In this document: one piece after another, positions 2,523 to 59,564 of the stretch | Layout: each line of letters opens with the position of its first letter | How positions within the stretch are numbered: position 1 is the first letter of the stretch | Source: Chiridota heheva | Lineage: Eukaryota; Echinodermata; Holothuroidea; Apodida; Chiridotidae | NCBI GenBank assembly: GCA_020152595.1 | Contig: JAIGNY010001587.1 | Coordinates: forward strand, 2,489,501-2,553,500 | DNA length: 64,000 nt | Direction of reading: 5' to 3' | The notes under the pieces: generated by a model | Seen by the model: only the letters and a program-made list of their open reading frames with translations | What the model was told of the DNA's origin: nothing | Databases searched by the model: none | Position numbers and translations under genes: made by a program

Positions 2523-2528
2523 ACTTAC

Positions 2529-2863
2529 CGTGAGTTGAGTTTTTCAACCTCCTGATCCAAGGAATCGGTTGAATCCGTGACTTCGATCCTAGGTCCCATC
2601 CTTGCAAAATACGGAGTATGAAAGAATACATCCTTTTCAGTGCTGGTCGTGCTCTTCTGTGAACTTTGAGAGGTCACTGAACTTTGAGATCCCGATCCTA
2701 TAGATGTTAAAGCTTGCCTGTAGCCTGTTTTTTGGGTGCTTGATTGCTGATTGCTTTTGGAACTGTAGTTTGGTTCTGTTTTGACGCTATCCGTTGAATA
2801 TCCGCCATTATTTGTTGCGGAGATGGGATGGAATACCGACCGCTGGTAAGGTGTTCGCGTTTC
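2529..2863 (-). CDS. Candidate internal exon, Ser/Thr-rich protein of unknown family
   Basis: Both splice sites are strong. On the minus strand the exon is preceded by a pyrimidine-rich tract ending TTTCCAG (acceptor AG at 2865-2864) and followed by GTAAGT (2528-2523). The frame is open throughout: 335 bp, 111 codons plus two bases, entering in phase 0 and leaving in phase 2. The encoded segment begins ETRTPYQRSVFHPISATNN. Its middle is rich in Ser, Thr and Gln and probably disordered. Its end (IEVTDSTDSLDQEVEKLNSR) is more acidic and may start a helix or coiled coil. I do not recognise the protein. Upstream the frame runs into low-complexity intron-like sequence, so the start Met of the longer open frame (at 2977) is not used. 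Neighbouring exons are not assigned. Confidence 0.5.
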
Positions 2864-2924
2864 CTGGAAATGATAATGATAATGATTTTTTTTTTTACAT
2901 AAGGATATAAATTGCATCATTGTA

Positions 2925-3225
2925 TTTGTCGTTATCGTCGTTTTCGTTTTCATCTTCATTGACGCTGTCATCTTCATTCAAGTTGACATCACCAACGTCA
3001 TTATCGTTATCACAATTTTCATCGTCGTTGTCTTTGATGTTGTTATTGTTATCGTCACTTTCATTGTCAGCGTCAATTTCGTCATTGTTGTTGTCATCAT
3101 TGTCGTCGTTATCATCGCCAATGTTGATGTCCCCGTCATTGTCGTTTCCATTGCCATTGTCGTTTGTCATGGTGTTTGTCGTATGTCATCGTCATTACCA
3201 TCGTTATTGTCTATTTTTGTCAGTG
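2925..3225. repeat. Low-complexity GTCRTT/ATC-type trinucleotide tract
   Basis: About 300 bp of degenerate TCGT/CATC/GTCATT words with a strong period of three. Read on the minus strand it spells runs of Asp, Asn and Glu, on the plus strand Ser and Leu. It has no splice limits or start context and is best taken as a decayed simple repeat. Confidence 0.75.
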
Positions 3226-3407
3226 GTGTGCTCACCAATCTGTGTCCAATTTTCCCATCTGAAGTCAAAAAGATAATAATAGATAAATAATTAATCAATT
3301 GATAAATGAAAATTGCTGGTACGTGCTTTTTACGTTATACTGACGAATTTCAAAAAAGCGTTGCGGAATTTTAATGTGTTTCTGGTGTTCAATAATGTAA
3401 CGTCTTC

Positions 3408-3588
3408 GACAACGTGTTGATGAACTTCGACAACCAACTTGTTGCCAAACTTCGACAATGTGTTGCCAAACTTCGACAATGTGTTGCCAAACTTCGACAA
3501 TGTGTTGCCGAACTTCGACAGCGTGTTGCCGAACTCTGACGATGTATTGCTGAATTTATATAACATATTGCCGAACTTCGACAAGTGT
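3408..3588. repeat. 21-bp minisatellite, array 1
   Basis: About eight diverged copies of a 21-bp unit (TTGCCAAACTTCGACAATGT plus G). The unit holds a 17-bp near-palindrome, TTGCCGAACTTCGACAA, whose 8-bp arms differ by one base. The same unit recurs at 4264-4545 and 6300-6533. The heptad-like open frames it produces in both directions (LPNFDNV, FGNTLSK) are by-products of 21 being a multiple of three. Confidence 0.85.
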
Positions 3589-4212
3589 TTTCAAATAGGA
3601 TTTATAAGGTCATTACCAGAAAACCTACAAAACTTCTTCTCACTGGCATCCAATGATAGATATAACACAAGGCTAAAAAATAATTTCAATTTCAAACAAA
3701 AGTATGTAAGAACAGGGATTTACAAAAGAACACCTCAGGAGCTTAAACTCTGGAACTCACTCGATGATAGTATAGAAGTATGGAAAAATGGAAAACCTTA
3801 ATTAGAAATAAGTACGAACAAAAATTATTGGCATCTCAGGTGTATCAAGATTAACTTTCAATCTTTAAGTTGTGCAAGTGTGTAATTGTCTAATCTTATG
3901 AATTTTTCTTTCTTTTCTTTTTACTGATAATATCTTTTTTTTGTACTCAAAGTTTTTTCTTATGGTATCCTTTTGTACAGATTTATGTTCGATTTATCAC
4001 AAATGTTTCCGATTCATGTTGAAATGTTTGGAGAAAACATTTTATAGATATTACAATTCGATTTTCTCTATTTCTATGCAATAATTTACCGATTAGATAC
4101 AAGATAAAGATTTTTTTTAAATGTATTTTTTTAATTAGAAAATGTATATGATTTGTCTGTTACACATATGTATTATTATTTGCTAGAAATAAATAGTGTC
4201 ATTATTATTGTC
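3586..4212 (+). pseudogene. 3' remnant of a non-LTR retrotransposon (RT C-terminus plus 3' UTR)
   Basis: From about 3590 to 3801 the frame reads a C-terminal reverse-transcriptase tail: the SNDRYNTRLKNN patch, then YVRTGIYKRTPQE and LKLWNSLDD. The order 'YNTR ... RT ... LWNSL' is the usual end of LINE ORF2 proteins. It is joined in frame to the preceding minisatellite, which is accidental. After the stop at 3799 comes an AT-rich 3' region ending near 4212 with AATAAA and ATTATTATT, a plausible LINE tail. The catalytic domain is absent. It is a 5'-truncated dead copy; the clade is not assigned. Confidence 0.6.
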
Positions 4213-4263: not shown

Positions 4264-4545
4264 ACAAAATGTTGTCGAACTTCTGCAACATGTTGCCGAA
4301 CTACGACAACATATTGCCGAACTTCGACAAAAATATAAAAAAAGATTAATAAAGAGATTAAAAAAGACAAAGTGTGCTGAACTTCGACAAAGTGTTGCCG
4401 TATTTCGATCACATGTTGCCGAATTTCGACAACTTTGTTGCCGAATTTTGACAATCTGTTGCAGAACTTTGATAATGTGTTGCCAAACTACGATAACATG
4501 TTGCCAAACTACGAGAACATATTGCCGAACTTCGACAAAAGTTGT
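4264..4545. repeat. 21-bp minisatellite, array 2
   Basis: The same 21-bp unit as at 3408, in two blocks split by an A-rich insert at 4330-4375 (AAAAAAGACAAAGTGTGC). That A-rich junction recurs before array 3 at 6290-6305, so flanking sequence was copied together with the repeats. Several units here have the spacer CATG, which gives the monomer a second small dyad (CAACATGTTG). Confidence 0.85.
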
Positions 4546-6299: not shown

Positions 6300-6533
6300 G
6301 TATGCCGAACTTCAAAAGTGTTGCCGAACTTCGACAACATGTTGCCGAATTTCGACAAGGTGTTGCCGAATTTCGACAAGGTGTTGCCGAATTTCGACAA
6401 GGTGTTGCCGAATTTCGACAAGGTGTTGCCGAATTTCGACAAGGTGTTGCCGAATTTCGACAAGGTGTTGCCAAATTTCGATAATGTGTTGCCGAACGAC
6501 GATAACATGTTGCCGAACTACGACAAGAACGCA
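6300..6533. repeat. 21-bp minisatellite, array 3
   Basis: The most regular of the three arrays, with about seven nearly identical units (TTGCCGAATTTCGACAAGGT plus G) in the middle and diverged units at both edges. This suggests recent local expansion compared with arrays 1 and 2. Confidence 0.9.
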
Positions 6534-8232: not shown

Positions 8233-8417
8233 ACACATTATCTTATATGAGCAGTTTTATTATGAACATCCAAAATCACGGGTGGGGTTTTCCTACCAAA
8301 AGTTGGGAGGGGGCAAAGACAAAGTGTGGAGAATCATAAAATCACGCTAAGATACAAAAAACAGCAATCACCATACAAAATACATACATTTGGAAAAAGT
8401 GTTAACCACCATTATTG

Positions 8418-8657
8418 ATTTTCTCAAAAAGGCGACAATGAAGTTCAAAAAGCATCGGCGAAAAGTTGTGCATATCTATTTACTATCCGTCTCCAAAATT
8501 TCAGGATATCCAGTAAAATTTTGGACAATCTGGAGCGGAAAATGAAAAACCCCATACGTTTGGTGTGGGCTAGTCAAATGTGTAGCTCATTCGGTGACGT
8601 AATACATAAAAGTACCCAATTTCAAAGTACCCAGTTTTTCGGGTTGCTCCCGGACTG
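8418..8657. mobile_element. Solo right arm of foldback element family 1
   Basis: This is the right half of the elements at 30056-30593 and 59025-59559, including AAAAAGCATCGGCGAAAAG, GACGTAATACATAAAAGTAC and the end GGGTTGCTCCCGGACTG. No matching left arm is present. Confidence 0.8.
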
Positions 8658-9750
8658 ACTATATCGCACCTTTGGTTACACCTGATTGTGTGTTGATTCT
8701 CTTTGCCAAAACGTTAAGTTCTCTATTTACATTTTATACTTATTAATGTACAAATCAATTTCTCTTTTTTATTACATGTTATAAACCATTCGTATAGCTG
8801 CATAAATGATGCAGCATGACCATTCAAAATTCTTGTTTTGTAATCTGGTAATGTATAGGCAGGTTTTAATCTTTCATGTTTTCCTGCACAATATTCATAA
8901 TTACACAACTGTCATTATCTGATTGAACATCTTCATCAATTATAAACTTCCATTTACGTGACAATTTGATAAAGAAATACTTGTTGCCTAACTTGATTCA
9001 GAAAATTGGGATTGGCAAGGTCTTTTACTTCTCATTAATTTCCTCTGTTTTTGACATTTCCGTGAAAGGAATTGAATGATTAAGTTCTGGTTGTAATAAT
9101 GCCTTCCTCATTTTTTTGTTTAGTTTTATTTATTTCAAATCAATTATTATCGAGATTGTGATTACTGTCGAAAAGGAAGAAGATATTAAGACTTGGTTTC
9201 ACAAATTGTATTTAACGTACGCAACATGGACTTTTCCCAAACTTCCAAAGGGGACACTTCTGATGCAATAGGAGCATATGGGGTTGCGGTTGTTTTCTCT
9301 CTTATTGTGTAGTTGTAGTCCTATGCAGGAGGAAGATGTTATCCTGTGTCCATTGTAGGGGAGTAGGAAGGGTCCCCTCTTATGAGGGCAAGAACCCACA
9401 AACCTCCAGGTTACAAGCGGAAAAATTGCACTAAGATTCCATCAAATGTCGCTGCTATTCGGGAAATCTATATTTTAATTTCGGCAACATTCCTAAACTT
9501 TTGGGAAATTGTCTTCAATGTTAGGGAAATTTCCTTCATGTTCAGGTAAATTCTTTCAATCATCGGAAACTTTTGACATATTGATTAAGATTGCCAACTT
9601 TCCCTTCAGTTTTACTATTTGTTTTCAATTCATGTTGATAATTTCCTAGTTTTACCTCCCAAACGGGCAGAAAGCTTGCAATCGGGAATGTGAAATCCTC
9701 TAAGGAGGAAGCTTGCCCAACACCTTACCTCGCTTCTATATACGCCTCTG

Positions 9751-13544: not shown

Positions 13545-13755
13545 GAACGAGTATTGTGTGCGTCGCCGTGCTGGCAACGTCACCTCCGGTTTTTAAGTAT
13601 TAATCGCGAGAAATCTGCGATATTATCTACCAATCACACATACGCCATAAAGAAAGCATTCAAAAATCTTATTCCGTTTAGGAGATATCTAAGTTTAAAG
13701 TTTGGTATCATTTGTGTAGACACGACGGAATTTAGACTAGTTGTGATGTCATAGC
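13545..13755. repeat. Arm of foldback family 2 joined to a dispersed repeat
   Basis: 13555-13640 (GCCGTGCTGGCAACGTCACC, ATCGCGAGAAATCTGCGA) matches the arms of the elements at 21868 and 53894. 13660-13755 (AGGAGATATCTAAGTTTAAA, CTAGTTGTGATGTCAT) matches 44785-44885 in the same strand and is the inverse of blocks at 15200, 15900 and 53650. Confidence 0.6.
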
Positions 13756-13799: not shown

Positions 13800-14902
13800 A
13801 TCATCATATTTTAATTGTCGGACTAACCATGTCCATGTTCCTGGAGCTGACTCCAACACTGTAAATCTTGAATATGGGACCCCACAAGGCTCTGTTTTAG
13901 GACCCTTGGTCATTCACACTTTATACTATCCCAATAGGTGACATATTGCGGAAGCACAAGATCGAGTATCACATATATGCTGATGATATACAGATTTTCT
14001 TAGCCTTTAACCCTAAAGTTCCACTCGATGCTGAATGTGCTTTGTTCAAACTGACCTCCTGTGTGCAACAGTGGATGATTGCAAACAAAGTTAAACTTAA
14101 TAAGGACAAAACAGAGTGTATCATAATCTCTTCATCAAATGCTAGTAAAGCCCTTGAGAACCTCAAGTTTGTATTTGGCAATACTTGCATCTCACCAGTC
14201 ACTTCAGTTAAAAATCTGGGAGTTGCTTTCGATAATAGAATGTCAATGGACAACCATGTGACACAACTTAGTAAAACAATTAATTATCACATTAGAAACA
14301 TTGGCAAGATTCGTCGGTACATTGACGTTGAAACCTGTCATTATGTTGTTCGATCACTCATCCTATCACGTTTGGACTACTGTAATTCCCTTTTGAATGG
14401 TATTACCATGAAACATGTAAATCGCCTACAGAAACTCCAAAATAAAGCTGCTAAAGTTTATCTTCAGGAAACGTCGTCGTGATCATGCCTCACCCTTGCT
14501 CAACAAATTGCATTGGCTCCTGTGTCACAGCGAATTTTATACAAAACATGTCTTATTGTCTACAAATCCTGATACATCAATCACCTGAATACGTATCCAA
14601 CAGTCTGAAACTTTATACACCATCACGATCCCTTCGCTCCTCTTCTGAAAACTTTCTGACTGAACCCAGAACTAACACCAAAGCTGGTTCTAGGGCTTTT
14701 TCAGCTGCAGCACCCCATGTTTGGAACTCTTTGCCTTCACACATTCGCCATGCCAGTTCACTTGGACAGTTCAAAACACGTCTCAAGACTTTTCTTTTTT
14801 AATCATGTAATACTTACTGAACTTTGGGGCAGCATTCTGGGCGCTTTGTATCCTATGGAAAAGGCGCCTACTACAAATGAACATGGATGGATGGATGGAT
14901 AG
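13800..14902 (+). pseudogene. L2/CR1-like LINE, 3' fragment of the reverse transcriptase
   Basis: The segment encodes the second half of a non-LTR retrotransposon ORF2 protein in broken frames. GTPQGSVLGPL (13876-13908) and IYADDIQIF with the YADD catalytic site (13976-13987) are in different frames, so there is a frameshift between them. The thumb/C-terminal region follows: SRLDYCNSLLNG, RLQKLQNKAAK, then RRRDHASPLLNKLHWL in a shifted frame from about 14473, more shifts and a stop near 14570, and finally YTPSRSLRSSS, GSRAFSAAAPHVWNSLPSHI and FKTRLKTFLF to a stop at 14802. The 3' UTR carries AAAAGGCGCCTAC and ends in (ATGG)n at 14882-14900, as in L2-type LINEs. There are at least three breaks. 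The endonuclease and first half are missing, so the copy was 5'-truncated on insertion and is dead. Confidence 0.85.
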
Positions 14903-14904
14903 CC

Positions 14905-15845
14905 TCAGAAATGTCAGATTCCTTAAAGTCTTTATGTATTCTATCATATTTTGTCCTACGATTTTGTGGCTTAAAAACCATGGGATGTGTCAAAAAAAGT
15001 AGTAAAACTTAATCTATTGAAATGGTATTTATAATATACCACCTGAAGAAAGTTTGAGGAAAAATAGTTTAAATAGTGAAAAAATTAAATAAACTTTTTT
15101 AAGATACATTAACAATTGTTAAGAATGTGAGGATGAAGACGCCAACTTTCGTAGACTTACTAACCTGTCATTTCTACACAGATAAGACAGAGCTTTAAAC
15201 TTGAATATCTCCTTAACTGCTTAACGGAATAAGATTTGTGAACGCTTTGTTCAAAGTATTGTTTCTTTTGAAGTCCTCTTTCAAATAAGATGGACATGCT
15301 TGACCACTGAAGTAATCCTTTAAGATGTAAGCTCAATAAGATTTGACTGATTGCAGTTGATGCTCAAGTGACTGGCCATGAGACTATTGACGCAGATGGT
15401 TTGACATTCGAGAGTTAAAAGTATTCTTATACAAGATTTTATCATTCACACAGTTGACGAGGAAAAAGCCACTGAACTATTTGGTCTTGAGTTACAAAAA
15501 CTTTCTCTTAATGATCTTTTAAATCTTGCATTATTACCAAAAACGTAATTCTTGAAAGTCTTTTAATTTTGAAAACATCACATTTAGTTTCATGTGTGGC
15601 TGATACAGACCGACGCGCATGAGAAGTCTACTTTAGAAGGTTGGTGCCCTCATCCTCACTTTCTCACTGATTGTTAATCTATTTAAAGAGACTAAATTGT
15701 TTCTTTTTACTAATTCAATCTTTATTTTTATTTTTTCAGGTAGTAAATTAAAGTTACTTAACAAGTTTACTGCTTGCTCATTATATCTAATGGTTTTAAG
15801 CCACAAAATCTCAGGGGAAAATACAAACAAAATACACAATAGCTT
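14905..15845. repeat. Composite inverted-repeat element
   Basis: The left arm (about 14914-15160) contains TTTTGTGGCTTAAAAACCAT and AAGAATGTGAGGATGA. The right arm (about 15640-15840) is its reverse complement with moderate divergence. The left arm and the sequence after it (to 15330) recur in direct orientation at 53335-53775. The middle (15340-15640) has no coding potential. Confidence 0.6.
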
Positions 15846-16261
15846 TTGAGAATTGTGAGGACGTGTGTTATAACTAGTCTGATTTCAGTCGTTACTGCAC
15901 AAATGAGACAGAACTTTAAACTTGAATACCTCTGTAGCTGGATTAGGTAATGAATAAGTTTTTCACCAATTTTTTCCATATATATCAGATAACGTATTTG
16001 ACCACTGAAATACTTAAACTTCAGATTAAAGAGATTTTAAGTTTCATAAATTCATGTTTTCTTGTACTTTTTGTCACATGATTGAAAAACAATCTGATAG
16101 ACTGTCGTTCGAAAACGGAGTGCTTTTCCGCCAATAATATCACAAGTTGATGATGTTTTTTAAATTAAAAACATATACGTGTAAAAGTTTTGACGACATA
16201 TTGTACTATTTCCAGGTTGCAAACAGCTTTAATTTGTTTTCTTATACAATTAGTAGCCCTT
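15846..16261. repeat. Dispersed repeat fragment and spacer
   Basis: 15855-15965 (GAGACAGAACTTTAAACTTG, AATACCTC) is another copy of the block seen at 15170-15260 and 53600-53690. The rest up to the left end of the next element has no feature. Confidence 0.5.
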
Positions 16262-16795
16262 TTTAGGCCAAGAATTTTAGATAAAAAAGGAGGCCCACAC
16301 CTGGAAATATATTTCGCTGGTAACAAGCTAATTTTTTCATGATAGGTCCAGAATTATGTGTAGAATAACACACTAAAAGTCCCCGAAAATCTTTCTTAAG
16401 CTTTCCCGAAAATCCAAGATGGCGTCCAAAATGGCCGCCATTTAAATTCGTTATCATATCTTTGCATCCAGAGAGGTTATAGATATTTAAAAAAAAAGAA
16501 GGTTTTTAAACATGTTTTATGGGATAAGAAATCGATTGAAAGCATCACGTAAGAGGCTATAACATCCCATATTACCAAAAGCTAGATGGCGTCCAAAATG
16601 GCCGCCATTTAATTTTGTTATCATAACTTTGCATCCAGATAGGTTATAAATAAAAGATAAGTGTCTAAAACATGTTTTGAGGGACAAGAAGTCCATTGAA
16701 AGCATCACGTAAGAGGGTATAACATCCCAAATTACCAAAACCAAGATGGCGTCCAAAATGACCGCCTTTTTATTTATTTTTAACATAACTGCGGA
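16262..16795 (+). repeat. Left long terminal repeat, three sub-repeats
   Basis: The marker word GGCGTCCAAAATG occurs at 16421, 16588 and 16748, steps of 167 and 160 bp. Each sub-repeat carries AAGATGGCGTCC and AATGGCCGCCATTT, close to the YY1 consensus AANATGGCGGC in one or both orientations, which could give the ends promoter activity. Other shared words are TTTGCATCCAGA, AACATGTTTT and GAAAGCATCACGTAAGAGG. Confidence 0.8.
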
Positions 16796-17289
16796 ATGTA
16801 ACAAATATCAACACAGTGTCAAAACATGTTCTAACTTGGCAGGAATCCAATCAATTATTTAGTTAATATGGTCCCAAACCGTCCAATCATACATCATAAC
16901 CCTACCACAATTCATTACCCTAAACCAAAGAGCTTCTACACACTCTTTGCCCAAACCTATAATCATATAAACCCGCAGGAAAATAATTCCTTTGTGTCAA
17001 AAACTACACACGAAAAAGTTCCATAGCGGTTGAAAAAGATATGCCAGTCTTGAACAAAAAGTAGAAGTACCTCAACTGAGGTCAAGTACTTCTCGGACAT
17101 ATGACATAAAAAAAAAAATAACACAATAAAAAAACAAAAAAATTATTTTCTGTTTGAACCCTGTCAAACTAGACATTAAGAAACCATTTAAAAGAAGGAG
17201 AATAATAAGTAATGTAGAGACCTTGGACTTTCAAGCAACAGTATCAAAATGTGCAAGAGAAAGCCAAAACATGTGAAGCAATGTTGTTG

Positions 17290-19900
17290 CAGAACGTGTA
17301 CAACAGGCATATGACCTTGTAGCAGCAAGGGCTAAGTATCATTGAAAGTGTGCCTAATTATTTCTTAAACAGAGTGAAAAGGCTTAACGAGGATTTGCGG
17401 GAGCAAGCATTTAAGAAGCTCTGCGAGTTTTTAAGTGATAATGATGAGTGTCAATACTCAGTGCAGGAGCTTATAGAATACATGAGCGTGTTATTGGATG
17501 GATCTGAGGATACTCAGTAAAGCAATTCAAGGCCACACTGAAGGAACATTATGGTGATGATATAGTTGTAACCAGTATTTCTGGAAAACCAAGTATAATT
17601 TTCCGTGACTCGGCACACAGGATCCTCATTGAAAAGTGGATTACTGATGAGGTGATTGATGTGAATGGTCAAAGTGAACTGATAATAGATATGGCAGATG
17701 AACGATATCAGATTGACAGTGTATGACTGTGACAAGTACACAACATTGGAAGGAACAGAAAACAGAGATACATTGATACCCAGTTCTCTTAAGCGTTTCC
17801 TACACAACTTGGTGGGCGTTAAGGGTAAAAGAAGCACTGTTTCAGAAAGGAAATGCACAGCCATAGCACATGCTGTAATGCCAAGCAGACCCAGATCCTT
17901 TAGCTCACCACTTTTGCATGTAATAGCTGTGTATATACACCACAATTATGCCTCCCATGGAGTGATTGACATTCTTAGCAGCATATGCTTTGCAGATACA
18001 TACAAAGAGATGTAGCGGTTTGAACAAACCCTAATGTCAGGTAGTGACCTGTCATATGATCTGAATGTTTTACACAGTTTGTGTTTGAAAACGCTGACTT
18101 CAATGTAGCTACAGTTACGGGACACAACACTTTTCATAGTATGGGTGGCATAGCTTGTGAAACACCATCTAGTGTTGTGAATAGTTCACCTATCAATCGC
18201 GAAGTAAAGCTGCAGTCTGCTGAAATCACTGGTGCCTTTGGACAAGTTTCAATAAAGACATATAGCAAGCCAGCTGTTCCAGGTCTATAGTCTGTTACAA
18301 TGCAGCCCCTCTAGATTCCTAGCCAGAACCATCATGACTAGGATCAGCAGTTGCCCTAGACGTCCAGTGGATGTGTGGCTGCATTCTATAAATAGCTCAA
18401 TGCCACTCATGGAGTAGCTCTATGAAAGTGGCTATGACGAATGATCAGCATGAGAGAAACAGAATCGTAGCCATGCCCTTCATCAACCTGGAGTCAACCA
18501 ATCCAAGCACCATCTACTCTGCTTTATGCTTTTGTAAAACATGACTTGCGGGTATGCCCAGTTATATTTGACCAGCCTTTATATAAAAGCTGCGAAGATT
18601 GTAGCTTCTGCAAAAGATATACACAAAGTTGTTGTGCGCCTTGTTGGATTCCATCTCCTAATTTCTTATCTCGGCAGCATTGGGTATGTCAGGAAGTGGA
18701 ATAGCGGAGCTTTGGGAGACGGTGTACGCAAAAGGATCAGCTGTACATATGTTAACTGGCCATGTCTTCGCTCGTGCACTCCGTGCTCACGTTCTTACAC
18801 CAGTAGCCATCATTTGTGTTTTAATGGGTACACCTGGTTCTTTGGACAGCATTGATAAAGAATGTTTAGAGAACCATTACAAAGGCCTTCTTAACCAAAA
18901 CACAATGCCACTGAAGTAGATGAGGAGTCTATCAAAGTGTTTAATCAACTCATATCAAGACTACTTGGCCAAACAGTAAGTCAGAGCAGGACTGGAAAGC
19001 TCTGGATGCAGTATGTCCGGCAAGTGGCACTCATGCAACACTTCATCTGTGCTGAAAGGACGGGTGAATGGAAACTTCACCTCTACTTTTAAGAGAAATG
19101 ATTCCACATTCCATGCCGCAGGTCACCTCCATTACGCAAAGGCTATATCAACAACAAACGGAAGCTTTGAAGCAGACAATGCCAGTTGAGGAGTATAAGC
19201 TCTTTACAGAGAAGGGACACTTTATTATTCGTCGTCTTGATCAATTTTGGAGTGGAAACTTCTCAGACCAGACCATCGGGCAGTTCTTAATGCAAATGCT
19301 GAAAATATTTGGAGGAATGACGCATGGCCAGAGTATCACAGATAGTAGATTAACAAAGTGGGTCCATGTATTATCTCGCTGCGTTCCTGTCTGTCAGGCA
19401 CTGGAGCGGTTCATTGGGTACACGCTGCCACATCTGAGCAAGACAGAGATCTTCGTTCTAGCACCCAGCCAAGGGACAACAGACATCGTGTGACTTTTAT
19501 ACAGTGGCTGCAGGCAGAGACACAGATAACCACTTGATGGTTATACATGTTATAAGAGGATGTGATACTGTTTCTGCCATCTATCGTCAGGGCAAACGCA
19601 AGGCATTTAATCTTGTGCACAAAAAACAGGACTATGATCAATTGGACATGTTCACAAAGGCTGAATGCTCACTTGCAGAGCTGAATAAAGCATGAGAAAG
19701 TTTCATTCACAAGTTGTATAGAATACCGCCATATAGCATATAAACGGGCGATTGGTAGGAGATCCCTTAGTTCATCATTCCAGCTGGCAAGCTTACCCCA
19801 AACTAGTGCTACAGCAAAGCAACATTCCTACTGTACTTTAATACCTCAGAGTTCAACAATAGATGGGAAATCCTCTGCTTTCAACAGACTGGCAGGGGAT
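17290..19900 (+). pseudogene. Remnant of a large repetitive metazoan protein (GCDT-motif family), unclassified
   Basis: Collinear fragments in changing frames can be read along the plus strand. They are: RVKRLNEDLREQAFKKLCEF (from 17371, stop 17518); KQFKATLKEHYGDD and SGKPSIIFRDSAHRILIEKW (17520-17726); ERKCTAIAHA and RPRSFSSPLL ... YASHGVIDILSS (about 17850-18015); ADFNVATVTGHNTFHSMGG (about 18084-18150); VVVRLVGFHLLISYLGSIG (about 18625-18690); GSGIAELWETVYA (18690-18730); FIIRRLDQFWSG ... GGMTHGQSITDSRLTKWV (about 19220-19370); and RGCDTVSAIYRQGKRKA (about 19555-19605). I recall this series, in this order, from a long uncharacterised protein predicted many times over in genomes of cnidarians, echinoderms, hemichordates and lancelets; its function and class are not known to me. 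At least six frameshifts or stops show it is dead. It lies between the inverted repeats at 16262 and 20688, consistent with being their cargo. Confidence 0.65.
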
Positions 19901-20344
19901 GGCATAAATGGTGGAAAATTCTTATTGTGAATTTTTCGAGAACAGGCGATTCATATCTTCCAATCTTCTTTGAATAAAAAAAAAGTCCATAGGGACAAAA
20001 AATCTGACAGGTCACAAATAAAAGCTCCTTCTTTCCATTGCAAAAATCACCTAATTTGTGTCTGGTAGGTTACAGTTTCTATTACTTAACAGATTATGAG
20101 ATAAAAGGTTACAAACGTATTTGATGTGTACAAAGGTGTATGAGGGGATTTTGTGATAATAATATGCTATATTTTGGAACCCGATTGACAGAATTGTGCA
20201 CGCCTTCCTCAGATCATGGTCATTTTGGTACCTTATGGTCTTTGTAACCCCTTTATATTTTTTATAGGATTCTTTGTTCATTATTTGTTCATTAGAACAT
20301 ATTGTTGGTCATTTTTTGGTATTTTTTTTAACTTGTCAGGTTAA

Positions 20345-20688
20345 AATGATATAATAAAATAGAAAATGGCGGCCATTTTGGATGCCATCTTGGTTTTGGT
20401 ATTTTAGAGATATTTTAACCTCTTATTGATGCTTCCAATGGATTACTTGTCCCTTAAAACAAATGTTTAGACACTCATTTCTTACTTATCACCTTTTTGG
20501 ATGCAAAGTTATGATAACAAATGAACATGGCGGCCATTTTGGACGCCATCTTGGATTTCCGGGAAAGCTGAAGGAGGATTTCCGGGGATCATATTATTCT
20601 ACACATAATTCTGGACCTATCCTGAAAAAAATCAGCTTGTTACCAGCTATTTCCAGGTTAAAGCTAAAAATCTTGGCCTATTTAGTCA
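20345..20688 (-). repeat. Right long terminal repeat, two sub-repeats
   Basis: Reverse complement of the left repeat. AAAATGGCGGCCATTTTGGA at about 20364 and ATGGCGGCCATTTTGGACG at about 20527 are about 162 bp apart. It ends at TAAAAATCTTGGCC near 20686, mirroring the left start at 16264. Confidence 0.8.
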
Positions 20689-21335: not shown

Positions 21336-21867
21336 TTAAAGAGTTAAAAGGTGTACTATTTAACGACACGACCCCCCCTCCCCTCAAAGAACCTTGACCA
21401 CCATTAGCACCTTCAGTGGTAAAAATTAGGTGCATAATAGTTACTAGAATGAGTAATGAAGCCGTTTTAAAAGACCCAGGGGAATTGACCATCTATGTTA
21501 TTAGGGCTGGGAGTGGTCAACCACTTCAAAAAAAAAAAAAAATCAGAGGTAAAAAAAAAATCAAAAAAATCAGAGGTACAAAAAAAAAATAATTGATAAG
21601 TGGTAGGAGAGGAGTTCCGCCCCTTTTTTCCTTATTTCACATATGTGAGCTTAAAGGAGCACTCAGCCGAAATGTAAGGGCGCATTATTCTGGAGTCTCC
21701 AGATTATTTGAACATACGTTTTTTGCACATGATGGTATTGAAAACATTTTATACGAATGTTCAATCAAAAGTAATAAATTGAAATGAATACTTTTTCAAA
21801 CATATTAGACCTGTGCGGATTCAAAACTCTCACGACCCGGCAAAAAAGACGTCCTCACTTTTCGATA
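21336..21867. other. Intergenic with A-rich runs
   Basis: Two A-rich segments around 21527-21590 alternate with ATCAGAGGTA, making a short imperfect tandem. A C-rich run lies near 21370. No gene. Confidence 0.5.
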
Positions 21868-22091
21868 GAGGAAACTTATCGTCACATAAATAATTTCAGA
21901 AGTGAACGCCGCCGTGCTGGTAACGTCACTTCCTGTTTTTAATTTCCCTTATTGATTGCGAAAATTCTGTGATGTTTGATAACACCGCAGATTTCTCGCA
22001 ATCAATAAGGTAAATTGAAAAAAGGAAATGACATTACCAGCACGGCGGCGTTCAATTCTGAACTTATTTATGGGATGATACCTTTCCTTTA
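21868..22091. mobile_element. Foldback element family 2
   Basis: Two arms of about 100 bp are reverse complements: GAACGCCGCCGTGCTGGTAA at about 21904 and its inverse at about 22030. A short loop (ATGTTTGATAACAC) lies between. The arms match the element at 53894-54138 and the single arm at 13555. The right edge CCTTTCCTTTAA fits a TTAA target site; the left edge is decayed. Confidence 0.75.
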
Positions 22092-25412: not shown

Positions 25413-25732
25413 GTGACACCAACTAGACAAATCCGGGCACAAACCTTTCCAAAAATAACGTTATCATATAGAGTCATATGCCAGTATGCCCTCGGAACCC
25501 CACGTTTTGGACATTGGCATTGTTAGAACAGTTGGAACACCTATACTTTTTGGAGGTTGGCTATGCCACTGCCAAAAGATTCAACAGGAGGGGGTGGCAT
25601 TCTGGTTTGACTGTTATTTGTAAAAGGCCGAGAACCAAGGGGTCTTCTAAATCTTTGATAATGAAAAACTGGCAGAGGGAGTTGAAGCTAAAGAGTTTTA
25701 TGTTAGGCCTCCACATCGTCATTGAACCCGTC
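25413..25732. other. Intergenic, no gene seen
   Basis: An open frame of 94 codons (25478-25762) crosses into the duplicated block that follows and lacks any motif or splice limit; not called. Confidence 0.5.
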
Positions 25733-26391
25733 AGCGTATCGCAAGCCGGAATTAGACAATGAGCTTCAAATAATTATCCCAAAAAGTGCGTGGGGTGAGT
25801 GGTAATGAGTTCAACCACCCACCCCCCCCCCCCCTCCCCCCTTCCCTCCCCTCCAACTCTGTACATGGCTACAATGTACTGAAATAGTTAGACATTTCGT
25901 GACAGTTTCTTTTTTGTGAGAATGAAGATTATCTATTCATGGAATTTGTGAGCATCTTGTGGAAACCCTTACTTTTCATATTTCATTAAATGCGTGACAA
26001 AATGATAATCCCGCTGGCTGGTAGGAAATAATGAACTTTGACAGTATAGCGTTGCACACGTGCACGTACAGTATATACAATTCCGATCTTCGCGCTCATT
26101 AATCAGTCAATGTAAACTTACACAATTTTGACGGTCGTAGTTCTTAGTTAAGCTACATTCTTTATAGTTCATTCATTTGTAAGTAGGCTCAATGATGCGT
26201 TGATTTATCTTAGCAAATTCTTCATGTTGGATTCACCCATTATATTGATTTACTTCAGATTACAGGAAGAGCAATCTGATGACGTCACAATCCTTCAGTT
26301 GCCAAACGAAGACAAGCCTCTCTGCTCCTCAGGATTACACTGCTGCAGTCATTGACGTTAACGAAAACAAATGCTTACATATGATAATTGC
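25733..26391. repeat. 660-bp duplicated segment, copy 1
   Basis: AGCGTATCGCAAGCCGGAAT (25733) to ATGATAATTG (26390) is repeated at 26745-27422 at high identity (about nine in ten bases by eye), with small indels. Both copies carry a full CRE palindrome TGACGTCA (26280-26287 here), a C-rich run near the left end, and TTTCGTGACAG. No open frame is conserved between copies, so it is a non-coding duplication, perhaps regulatory. Confidence 0.85.
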
Positions 26392-26552
26392 ATGAATGTT
26401 TCGCGCTCTTACATCAGCGATGTTTGGTTTTTCCACATACAGTGTACAATTATACATACATACACTTTACATATGTACGTACGGAGTTTTTTTTCAGGAA
26501 TGGCTTAAGGTTGACACAGCGTGTACACTATTAAAGAAATATTTTTGGAGGG

Positions 26553-26645
26553 CGCTACATAACATAACATAAGAAGATTACGGGCTAAGAAGGGTTAGTC
26601 ACCACCACCACAAAAAAAAATCCAAAAAAAAAAAAAATCAAAGAC
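26553..26645. repeat. Interspersed repeat, second copy
   Basis: CATAACATAACATAAG, then AAGAAGGGTTAGTCACC, CACCACCAC and an A-rich tail: the same order as at 1740-1845. It lies in the spacer between the two copies of the duplication and is not part of either. Confidence 0.6.
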
Positions 26646-26744
26646 GCTCAGACTTAGTAAAGAACTTATCAATGTTGACTTGTCACGTGTATCAATGTCG
26701 TAGATGTCGAAGCCTAATATTTGCATGGCGGCATTGTACTTCTT

Positions 26745-27422
26745 AGCGTGTCGCAAGCCGGAATTAGACAATTAGCCTCAAACAATGACCCCAAAAAGTG
26801 TGTGGGGTGAGTGGTAATAAGTCCAGCCAACGTCCCACCCCCTCCCATTCCTCCCCACCCACCCCCTGTACATGGTTGGCTCCTCCAATGTTTTCAAATA
26901 GTTAGAAATTTCGTGACAGTTTTCGGTGAGAATTAAGATTATCTATTCATGGAATTTGTGAGCATCTTGTGGAAACCCTTACTTTTCATTTAATGGGTGA
27001 GAAAATGATTTTCCCGCCAGGATGTAATGAACTTTGACAGCATAGCGTTGCACACATGCATGTTAGTGCATGTACAGTATACACAATTTCGATCTTCGCG
27101 CTCATCAATCAGTCAATGTAAACTTACGCATGATTTATCTATAAAATGCATTCGATTTTTACGGTCGTAGTTCTTAGTTAAGCTACATTCTTTATAGTTC
27201 ATTCATTTGTAAGTAGGTTCAATGATGCTTTAATTTATCTTAGCAAAGTCTTCATGTTAGATTCACCCTTTATATTGATTTACTTCAGATTACAAGAAGA
27301 GCAATCTGATGACGTCACAATCCTTCAAGTTGCCAAACGAAGACAAGCCTCTCTGCTCCTCAGGATTCCACTGCTGCAGTCATTAACGTCAACGAGAACA
27401 AATGCTTACATATGATAATTGC
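26745..27422. repeat. 660-bp duplicated segment, copy 2
   Basis: Direct copy of 25733-26391, displaced by 1012 bp at the left and 1031 bp at the right. The CRE palindrome is at 27310-27317. It gained about 20 bp relative to copy 1, including ATGATTTATCTATAAAATGC near 27130. Confidence 0.85.
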
Positions 27423-30055: not shown

Positions 30056-30593
30056 CAGTCCGGGAGCAACCCGAAAAACTGGGTACTTTGAAATGCCCAA
30101 CAAATTGGGTGCTTTTATAGATTACGTCATCGCATGAGTCTTCACATTTGACTAACCCACACTAAACATATGGAGTTTCTCATTTTCTGCTTCGGATTGT
30201 CCAAAATTTCACTGGGTATCCTGAAATTTTGGAGACGGATAGTAAATAGATACTCAAAACTTTTTGCCGCTGCTTTTTTAAATTCATCGTCGCCTTTTTG
30301 AGAAAATGAACAAGACTGACTGCACATTAACAGTTGTATTAATTTTCTTAACAAAGCGGCCGTGAATTTCAAAAAGCAGCGGCGAGAAGTTTTAAATATC
30401 TATTTACTATCCGTCTTCAAATTTTGAGGATACGCAGTAAAATTTTGGACAATTCGGAGCGGAAAATGAGAAATCCTATATGTTTAGTGTAGGCTAGTAA
30501 AATGTGTAGGTTCATTCGATGACGTAATACATAACGGTACCCAATTTTTTGGGTATTTTAAAGTACCCAGTTTTTCGGGTTGCTCCCGAACTG
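30056..30593. mobile_element. Foldback element family 1, complete copy
   Basis: 538 bp made of two long arms in inverted orientation. Left tip CAGTCCGGGAGCAACCCG, right tip CGGGTTGCTCCCGAACTG. The arms (about 245 bp) share AAAACTGGGTACTTT, TTGACTAACCCACACTAAAC, TATTTACTATCCGTC and AAAAAGCAGCGGCGAGAAG. Each tip can fold into small hairpins (TTCGGG-AGCAA-CCCGAA on the right arm, and GGGTA...TACCC further in). No open frame spans it, so it is non-autonomous. Flanking bases do not show a clear duplication here. Confidence 0.9.
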
Positions 30594-41575: not shown

Positions 41576-42392
41576 ATCGTAGAGGACTATCAATCGAGCA
41601 GGGCGCGGAAGGGCCATCAATCGAGCAGGGCGCGGGAAGGGCCATCCACCGAGCAGGGCGCGGGAAGGGCCATCAATCGAGCAGGGCGCGGGAAAGGCCA
41701 TCTATCGAGCAGGGCGCGGAAGGGCCATCAACCGAGAAGGGCGCGGGAAGGGCCATCAATCGAGCAGGGCGCGGAAGGGCCATCAATCGAGGAGGGCGCG
41801 GGAAGGGCCATCAATCGAGCAGGGCGCGGGAAGGGCCATCAATCGAGCAGGGCGCGGGAAGGGCCATCAATCGAGCAGGGCGCGGGAAGGGCCATCAATC
41901 GAGCAGGGCGCGGAAGGGCCATCAACCGAGCAGGGCGCGGGAAGGGCCATCAATCGAGCAGGGCGGAAGGGCCATCAATCGAGCAGGGCGCGGAAAGGGC
42001 CATCAATCGAGCAGAGCGCGGGAAGGGCCATCAACCGAGCAGGGCGCGGAAGGGCCATCAACCGAGCAGGGCGCGGGAAGGGCCATCAATCGAGCAGGGC
42101 GCGGGAAGGGCCATCAATCGAGCAGGGCGCGGGAAGGGCCATCAATCGAGCAGGGCGCGGGAAGGGCCATCAATCGAGCAGGGCGCGGGAAGGGCCATCA
42201 ATCGGGCAGGGCGCGGAAGGGCCATCAACCGAGCAGGGCGCGGGAAGGGCCATCAATCAAACTGGGCGCGGGAAGGGCCATCAATCGAGCAGGGCGCGGA
42301 AGGGTCATCAATGGAGCAGGGCGCGGAAGGGCCATCAATCGAGCAGGGCGCGGGAAGGGCCATCATTAGAACAGGGCGCGGGAAGGGCCACT
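41576..42392. repeat. 28-bp minisatellite
   Basis: About 29 copies of a 28-bp unit (GGGCCATCAATCGAGCAGGG followed by CGCGGGAA). Many copies are 27 bp through loss of one G, others shorter. An open frame of 358 codons (41531-42607) runs through the whole array because the unit lacks stops in every plus-strand frame, while the peptide register changes at each 27-mer (SIEQGAGRA, INRAGRGKGH, QSSRAREGP). A protein-coding role is therefore unlikely, though the ATG and downstream open frame leave it possible. Confidence 0.95.
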
Positions 42393-44685: not shown

Positions 44686-44893
44686 GAACTACATCATCCC
44701 CGCTGTACTTTTCTCGAAAGAGATATCAGTGCGATCGAAATCCATCTCATATGAAAAGAAACAAAATGGTGAAAAAAGCATCAAAAATCTTATTCCGTTA
44801 CGGAGATATTTAAGTTTAATATTTGGCATCATTTGTGTAGAAATGGCTGAAAAAAGACTAGTTGTGATGTCATTCAAATTTATACTGTTATGA
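44686..44893. repeat. Dispersed repeat shared with 13660-13755 and others
   Basis: CATCATCCCCGCTGTACTTT with GAGATATCAGT matches 54485-54530, and AATCTTATTCCGTTACGGAG to GTTGTGATGTCATT matches 13660-13755. It is part of the same inverted-repeat family as 15170-15330 and 53600-53770, in opposite orientation. Confidence 0.6.
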
Positions 44894-53334: not shown

Positions 53335-53775
53335 TGCCATAGCCTCAGATTCCTCAGTCTTTATATATTCTATCATGCTTTGTCCTGTGTATTTGTTGCT
53401 TAAAAACCATTGGCTATGTCAGGAAAGTAGTAAAACAGAATCTAGCAAGAGTTATTATAATTTACCACCTAAAGAAAGTCTGGAAAAATTAATTTCAATA
53501 GTAAAAAAATTAAATACATTTTTCTGTAAAATACATAGACAATTGATAAGAATGTGAGGATGATGGGACAACCTTCCATAGGAGAATTAAAACACCAGAC
53601 TGAATCATTTCTACACAGATAGCAAACAGGAAAAAATAAATAAACTTGAATATCTCCTTAATGGAACAAGATTTTTGAATACCTTTTTCCCCATTTTGTT
53701 TCTTTTCTAGTGCTCTTTTGTTATAAGATGAACTTGCTTGACCATTGAACTAATGATTTAAAAAAATGTGAAAAC
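53335..53775 (+). repeat. Dispersed repeat, copy of 14905-15330
   Basis: TCTTTATATATTCTATCATG, TTGCTTAAAAACCATTGG, AAGAATGTGAGGATGATGG, ACTTGAATATCTCCTTAA and TGCTTGACCATTGAACTAAT match 14905-15330 in order and strand. Confidence 0.8.
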
Positions 53776-59024: not shown

Positions 59025-59559
59025 CAGTTCGGGAGCAACCCGAAAAACTGGGTACTTTAAAATACCCAAAAAATTGGGTACTTTTGATGTATTACGGCAT
59101 TGCATGAGCCTACACATTTGACTAGCCCACACTAAACATATGAGGTTTCTTATTTTCCGCTCTGGATTGTCCAAACTTTTAAAGGATATCCTGAAATTTT
59201 GGAGATTGATAGTAAATAGATATTCAAAATTTTTACCGCTGTTTTTAACTTACGGTTGTCTTTTTGAGATAATCAATAAAACAGATTATAGGCAGTCTGT
59301 TTTGTTCATTTTCTTTAAAAGGTGATGATGAATTTCAAAAAGCAGCGGCAAAAAGTTTTTAATATCTATTTACTATCCTTCTTTAAAATTTCAGGATATC
59401 CATTGCAATTTTGGACAATCCGGAGATGAAAATGAGAAACCCCGTATGTTTAGTGTGGGCTAGTCAAAGGTGTAGGCTCATGCGATGACGTAATACATAA
59501 AAGTACCCAATTTTCTGGGTATTTCAAAGTACCCAGTTTTTCGGGCTGCTCCCGAACTG
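59025..59559. mobile_element. Foldback element family 1, copy with target duplication
   Basis: 535 bp, ends CAGTTCGGGAGCAACCCG and CGGGCTGCTCCCGAACTG. TTAGC lies directly outside both ends (59020-59024 and 59560-59564), a 5-bp target duplication. The two arms of about 245 bp are inverted copies. They match the element at 30056 over their whole length, with a different centre (CAGATTATAGGCAGTCTGTT). Confidence 0.92.
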
Positions 59560-59564
59560 TTAGC

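Follow-up and report, generated by a model that had tools for sequence, protein, structure and literature searches.

The window analysed here, a 64,000-nucleotide (64-kb) stretch of Chiridota heheva DNA, contains an old and broken copy, shortened by an internal deletion, of a DNA transposon that is present many times in the genome and belongs most likely to the AcademX lineage of Academ. Its intact form would be about 5.6 kb long and would encode a protein of some 1,080 or more residues, with a large transposase part and, after it, a probable FEN/XPG (PIN-type) nuclease domain. The earlier note on this DNA had set the limits of the unit at 16262 and 20688; the conserved termini instead place them at 16264 and 20680, and the ends are organized as follows (window positions):

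16264–20680: whole element; outermost conserved bases TAGGCCAAG at 16264, mirror at 20680
16261–16263: left copy of the 3-bp target duplication, TTT
16264–16409, + strand: outer left terminal inverted repeat, 146 bp, beginning with TAGGCCAAG
16410–16815, + strand: left sub-repeats (unit 1, 16410–16576; unit 2, 16577–16736; partial unit, 16737–16815)
16416–16443, + strand: 28-bp core 1
16583–16610, + strand: 28-bp core 2
16743–16770, + strand: 28-bp core 3
20322–20558, - strand: right sub-repeats (unit 1, 20558–20398; partial unit, 20397–20322)
20364–20391, - strand: 28-bp core 4
20525–20552, - strand: 28-bp core 5
20559–20680, - strand: outer right terminal inverted repeat, 122 bp, with matches elsewhere in the genome
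20681–20683: right copy of the 3-bp target duplication, TTT

Comparison of the window with itself aligned 16299–16653 with 20658–20322 as an inverted repeat (78.3% identity, 359 columns, E 4e-76), and the match extends further out on both sides to the terminal bases. This limit is shared by other copies, since 31 of the best 40 of 277 genome places matching the left arm start at query base 1–5, base 3 being 16264. The description of the inverted ends as built of ~163-bp sub-repeats is true of the inner part only, where the left end has two units (167 and 160 bp) plus an incomplete one and the right end a single unit (161 bp) plus an incomplete one; the outer arms of 146 and 122 bp give a gapped alignment to each other and contain no sub-repeats. 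Each sub-repeat unit of the window element carries the core AAGATGGCGTCCAAAATGGCCGCCATTT, which we take to be similar to YY1 sites. Allowing up to 3 mismatches, five sites are present (three left, two right), all of them within the arms and oriented inward; no further site was found in the 64 kb at this threshold, and shuffled sequences also gave 0. When all five units are aligned, invariant gap-free columns make up 27/34 of the core and 17/49 of the rest of the unit (p 6e-5), and with the three full units only the values are 30/34 and 91/125 (p 0.07). Folded as single-stranded DNA the core gives a z of -2.9, with 4 of 200 shuffles equally good; it is read only as a dyad.

The interior of the element holds a coding fossil on the + strand, with the following parts:

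17229–19692, + strand: remains of the family protein's coding sequence in 14 collinear pieces, interrupted by 3 in-frame stops and repeatedly frameshifted
18561–18730, + strand: VIFDQPLY ... RLVGFH ... GSGIAELWETVYA, proposed region of the catalytic D and E of the transposase
19449–19482, + strand: site of a ~1-kb internal deletion, placed by motif spacing, with most of the nuclease domain gone
19483–19692, + strand: surviving C-terminal end of the nuclease domain, with RGCDTVSAIY at 19555–19584

The collinear but broken reading region reported in the earlier note was recovered in full, its five named motifs starting in order at 17887, 18117, 18692, 19311 and 19555 of the + strand in shifting frames. 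With the minimum length set at 50, 60 or 70 codons, the sum of open stretches on the + strand was matched by none of 500 second-order Markov shuffles (with 40 codons it was reached by 8 of 500), and the open stretches of the - strand resemble shuffles. The coding pieces show a codon-position bias with a p value of 7e-7, which is favoured by their having been picked by eye, and the G+C content of the region is 39–47% against 29–37% in its surroundings. Taken together, with pieces chosen in this way, the open-frame excess, the codon-position bias and the higher G+C point to old coding DNA. A composition-based coding score (1.0, with 3.2 as the largest of 200 shuffles) gave no separation and is a method without power here. 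Searches with the window coding region yielded no convincing Pfam family (best E 0.061), 19.2 bits in NCBIfam, where the cut-off is 140, a best E of 0.01 in PHROGs and no match among solved structures; the predicted structure of a 77-residue piece (pLDDT 50) was too weak to use.

Both arms and the protein recur in the assembly from which the window was taken (1.1 Gb, 3,744 contigs). The left arm gave 44 matches (best 40 of 277 candidates scored), the right arm 52 (best 40 of 274) and the protein 123, the window's own included (best 61 of 1,319). These were reduced for the pairing count to 40 places for each arm and 52 loci for the protein, the arm matches left out being further pieces at the same places; owing to the similarity between the two arms, two or more of the left places (C102, C1681:15635) are in fact right arms of their elements. 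Among the matches listed, all 16 left-right pairs no more than 12 kb apart are inverted around an interior, 20 left arms have the protein on their inner side (in 19 with the strand as expected) and 21 right arms do so with a consistent strand in 21/21, while the outward controls for the three counts gave 0, 0 and 0. Protein loci with no listed arm amount to 22 of 52, which may reflect the arm listings of the best 40 of 277 and best 40 of 274. In 20 retrieved stretches, 14 of them selected for having both arms listed and six for a right arm plus protein, protein parts were present in 20/20 and both outer arms in 17/20, an unlisted left arm having turned up in three of those six. Paired inverted arms around intact copies of the protein had been anticipated; the pairing is borne out, and the copies that it encloses are all broken as far as they were scored (see below). 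The sub-terminal cores are a shared feature as well. At up to 5 mismatches, 54 cores were counted in 16 elements, a count made without a shuffle control, and in 16/16 both ends have one or more nearby; 27 of the 54 lie at 127–154 bp from the element end and 21 at 288–320 bp, the remaining six being placed elsewhere, 388–667 bp from an end.

Target duplications were examined in the 16 elements with both termini clean (the window copy and 15 others); L050 and L056, which lack one terminus, were left out, as were L054, L055 and L059, which have a single arm. At the window copy taken alone, the TTT duplication might be a coincidence (1.9% for random pairs). Identical flanking 3-mers are present in 12 of the 16 elements (chance 5.4%, from flanks of different elements), namely TTT, AAA, ATA, TAT (2), ATT (2), TTG (2), GTT, CTG and TTA, and absent at L043, L048, L051 and L057; other offsets gave at most 2/16 identical flanks, and 4 bp gave 0/16. 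The joined flanks of all 16 elements were then compared against the retrieved loci and the window, which returned one empty site (1/16), that of L040, an element lying inside a dispersed host repeat. After removal of one AAA, its joined flanks can be aligned, with no gap where they meet, to unoccupied copies of the repeat (L008, L022, L005 and window 44754–44872) at 78–83% identity, over 13–29 bp to the left of the junction and over 100 bp to its right. This is a paralogous empty site with one copy of the target. The same host repeat has copies in the window at 13648–13751, 15167–15230, 15888–15951, 44754–44872 and 53604–53667.

With recurring inverted pairs around the protein, 3-bp target duplications and this empty site, the suggestion that the unit is mobile is upheld: it recurs with inverted repeats exactly at its two ends, has a target duplication and an empty site, and in these respects is a DNA transposon. 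Two other origins can be weighed against the same observations. A cellular multigene family whose flanks were carried along by segmental duplication rather than transposition would account for many copies of which none is unbroken (best 61 of 1,319 scored), but it does not sit well with exact ends followed by different flanking bases in each copy, nor with the 3-bp duplications and the empty site, and is considered very improbable. That two independent short inverted-repeat insertions came by chance to flank an unrelated gene fossil is barely credible: dispersed repeats do occur in opposite orientation in the window (30056–30377 and 59238–59559, for instance), but the geometry recurs around the same protein, with 16/16 listed pairs inverted inward and none outward, and the duplications match between far ends.

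The window also contains a number of other features. A reverse transcriptase remnant at 13904–14479 (+ strand; RVT_1, E 2.1e-6, 28.1 bits, cut-off 29.6) is probably a LINE fragment. A fold-back repeat at 30056–30593 has arms of ~263 bp with 12 bp between them and related copies at 59057–59561 and 8409–8671, and a long palindrome at 21866–22091 has 111-bp arms that are 86% complementary with a 4-bp gap. There is a tandem duplication of ~1.02 kb at 25717–27422 (pieces 82–96% identical), a 21-bp minisatellite (TGCCGAATTTCGACAA...) with related units in four separate arrays (3404–3589, 4264–4330, 4375–4538 and 6303–6527), and a G+C-rich 28-bp minisatellite at 41589–42390 with 29 copies and three frames open. 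An open frame at 2525–2977 (- strand) with a weak DIX-domain match (17.2 bits, cut-off 22.2) is possibly part of a host gene.

The DNA transposon copy in the window is shorter than the median length of 16 elements, 5,573 bp. The distance between the GGMTHG...ALERF and GCDT motifs is 221 bp in the window copy and 1162–1264 bp in 10 of the 12 measurable elements (of 15), the other two having longer spacings (L043, 1776 bp; L051, 1963 bp). The window copy has thus lost about 1 kb, comprising most of the nuclease domain. At the other extreme, L053 (C2156) is a 9.5-kb copy, ~4 kb above the median, and perhaps contains a nested insertion. Left and right arm of the window copy diverge by ~22%, and the right arm differs by 11–18% from the other 39 places scored (best 40 of 274). 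No unbroken copy of the protein was found among the loci scored (best 61 of 1,319); the longest stop-free protein match among the matches listed covers 213 residues, every longer one containing a stop, and the longest single open frame matching the family among the retrieved loci has 324 residues. The family looks old and inactive in this genome.

The central part of the protein, read from many other copies with some loci overlapping in the genome, shows the motifs NADFN, VTFDQPLYIKAAEIVASAKDLHKVVVRLGGFHLLMSYLGSIG and GSGIAELWETVYAKG. The acids of NADFN, VTFDQPLY and AELWE are proposed, from their sequence context, as a D-D-E-like catalytic set. The hAT/P/MuDR/Kolobok/Dada group is described as having a C/DxxH motif between the second D and the E (PMC9587614). 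On the proposed placement of the acids, many copies have GGFH at this position and a few, such as L012 and L018, have DGFH. Comparison of the central part with Pfam gave nothing beyond E 0.065, and a profile search of solved structures only noise.

The part missing from the window copy could be read from 30 loci as VVFDGYGST, EADADSLIVSTALAVAES, ELPVVVVGTDTDLLVMLVA and HAITGCDTVSAIYRQGK, many of the rows being patchy and individual motifs absent from some of them. The order of the acidic motifs (VVFDGY, EADADxLIV, GTDTDLLV, GCDT) is presumably that of FEN/XPG 5' nucleases. The Pfam family PF02739 (5'-3' exonuclease, N-terminal) matched 3 of 10 members with 20.8, 19.3 and 14.5 bits (best E 3.5e-4), all under the curated cut-off of 34.3, and seven were without a match; five other, unrelated Pfam families match single members at E 0.025–0.16. 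The profile search of solved structures returned only noise for this part, and a model from an 18-row alignment led by L058 (pLDDT 42) was too weak to use. As a result of the sub-cut-off match, the noise in the structure search and the weak model, assignment of the lost part to a FEN/XPG (PIN)-type nuclease domain is likely, not proven.

In a possible mechanism, the protein would bind the core sites near both element ends and pair the TAGGCCAAG termini, after which the element would be cut out and joined to target DNA with a stagger of 3 bp. The chemistry might fall to the D-D-E-like acids (NADFN, VTFDQPLY, AELWE), and the nuclease domain might process a DNA end or flap.

Filing of the transposon under AcademX is inferred from published descriptions rather than from transposase homology, and follows from the fit of the 3-bp duplications, the likely nuclease and the ~5.6-kb length. 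The Academ nuclease is probably of the XPG type. According to one description, which speaks simply of a nuclease, AcademX produces duplications of 3 or 4 bp and AcademH of 9 or 10 bp, a difference tied to the encoded nuclease and helicase (PMC10045372), and the 3 bp seen in 12/16 elements falls in the AcademX range. A second description reports an expansion of Academ in bivalves with 100 curated consensus elements of mean length 5,565 bp (PMC10294476), close to the present median of 5,573 bp, length being a usual and not a defining trait. The element could instead represent an unnamed DNA transposon superfamily that has a transposase of its own and has captured a PIN-type nuclease, its likeness to AcademX being limited to duplication length, nuclease and size. 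This is in keeping with a central part for which Pfam, NCBIfam, PHROGs and PDB offered no convincing match, but duplication length, nuclease and length jointly match the AcademX and bivalve Academ descriptions, and we consider such a superfamily unlikely. A version of it in which the FEN/XPG-type nuclease has a direct role in excising the element or processing its ends, with the tandem sub-terminal cores as guides, is a slimmer prospect still; if true, the uncharacterised protein family would be the enzyme that mobilises a separate class of large DNA transposons.

Searches for relatives in IMG/VR, GTDB contigs, phages and plasmids returned none, which says little because these collections hold viruses and prokaryotes; some of the motif patterns used on IMG/VR and GTDB were influenced by a prior idea of what the family looks like. 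Literature searches found no paper joining GCDTTS with a transposase, Academ with YY1, or PIN/FEN1/XPG with DNA transposons, and the core letters matched only an unrelated plasmid paper. For the AcademX-like transposon favoured here, the consequence is that a long unannotated protein family with no convincing Pfam match gains an identity as the gene carried by a ~5.6-kb transposon. Annotations may count such genes as host genes, and the sub-terminal cores together with the joined nuclease offer testable parts of a transposition mechanism.

Among known systems, the FEN/XPG and T5-type 5' nucleases (PF02739) resemble the nuclease of the element in the presumed acidic motif order and in the sub-cut-off profile match; unlike them, it is joined to a transposon protein and is known from sequence alone. 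CMC/EnSpm (CACTA) and PIF-Harbinger elements share short target duplications, of 2–3 bp, with the present family, whose 12 duplications are not confined to TWA. The termini of CMC/EnSpm are of the CACTA type and those of the present element are TAGGCC (TAGGCCAAG), which speaks against membership in this group. The AcademX lineage of the Academ superfamily has in common with the element a 3-bp duplication, a nuclease-like domain, a length of ~5.6 kb, inverted ends and a multicopy nature, and to these the present family adds ~160-bp sub-repeats with a 28-bp core, a feature unmentioned in the passages on AcademX and bivalve Academ cited above.
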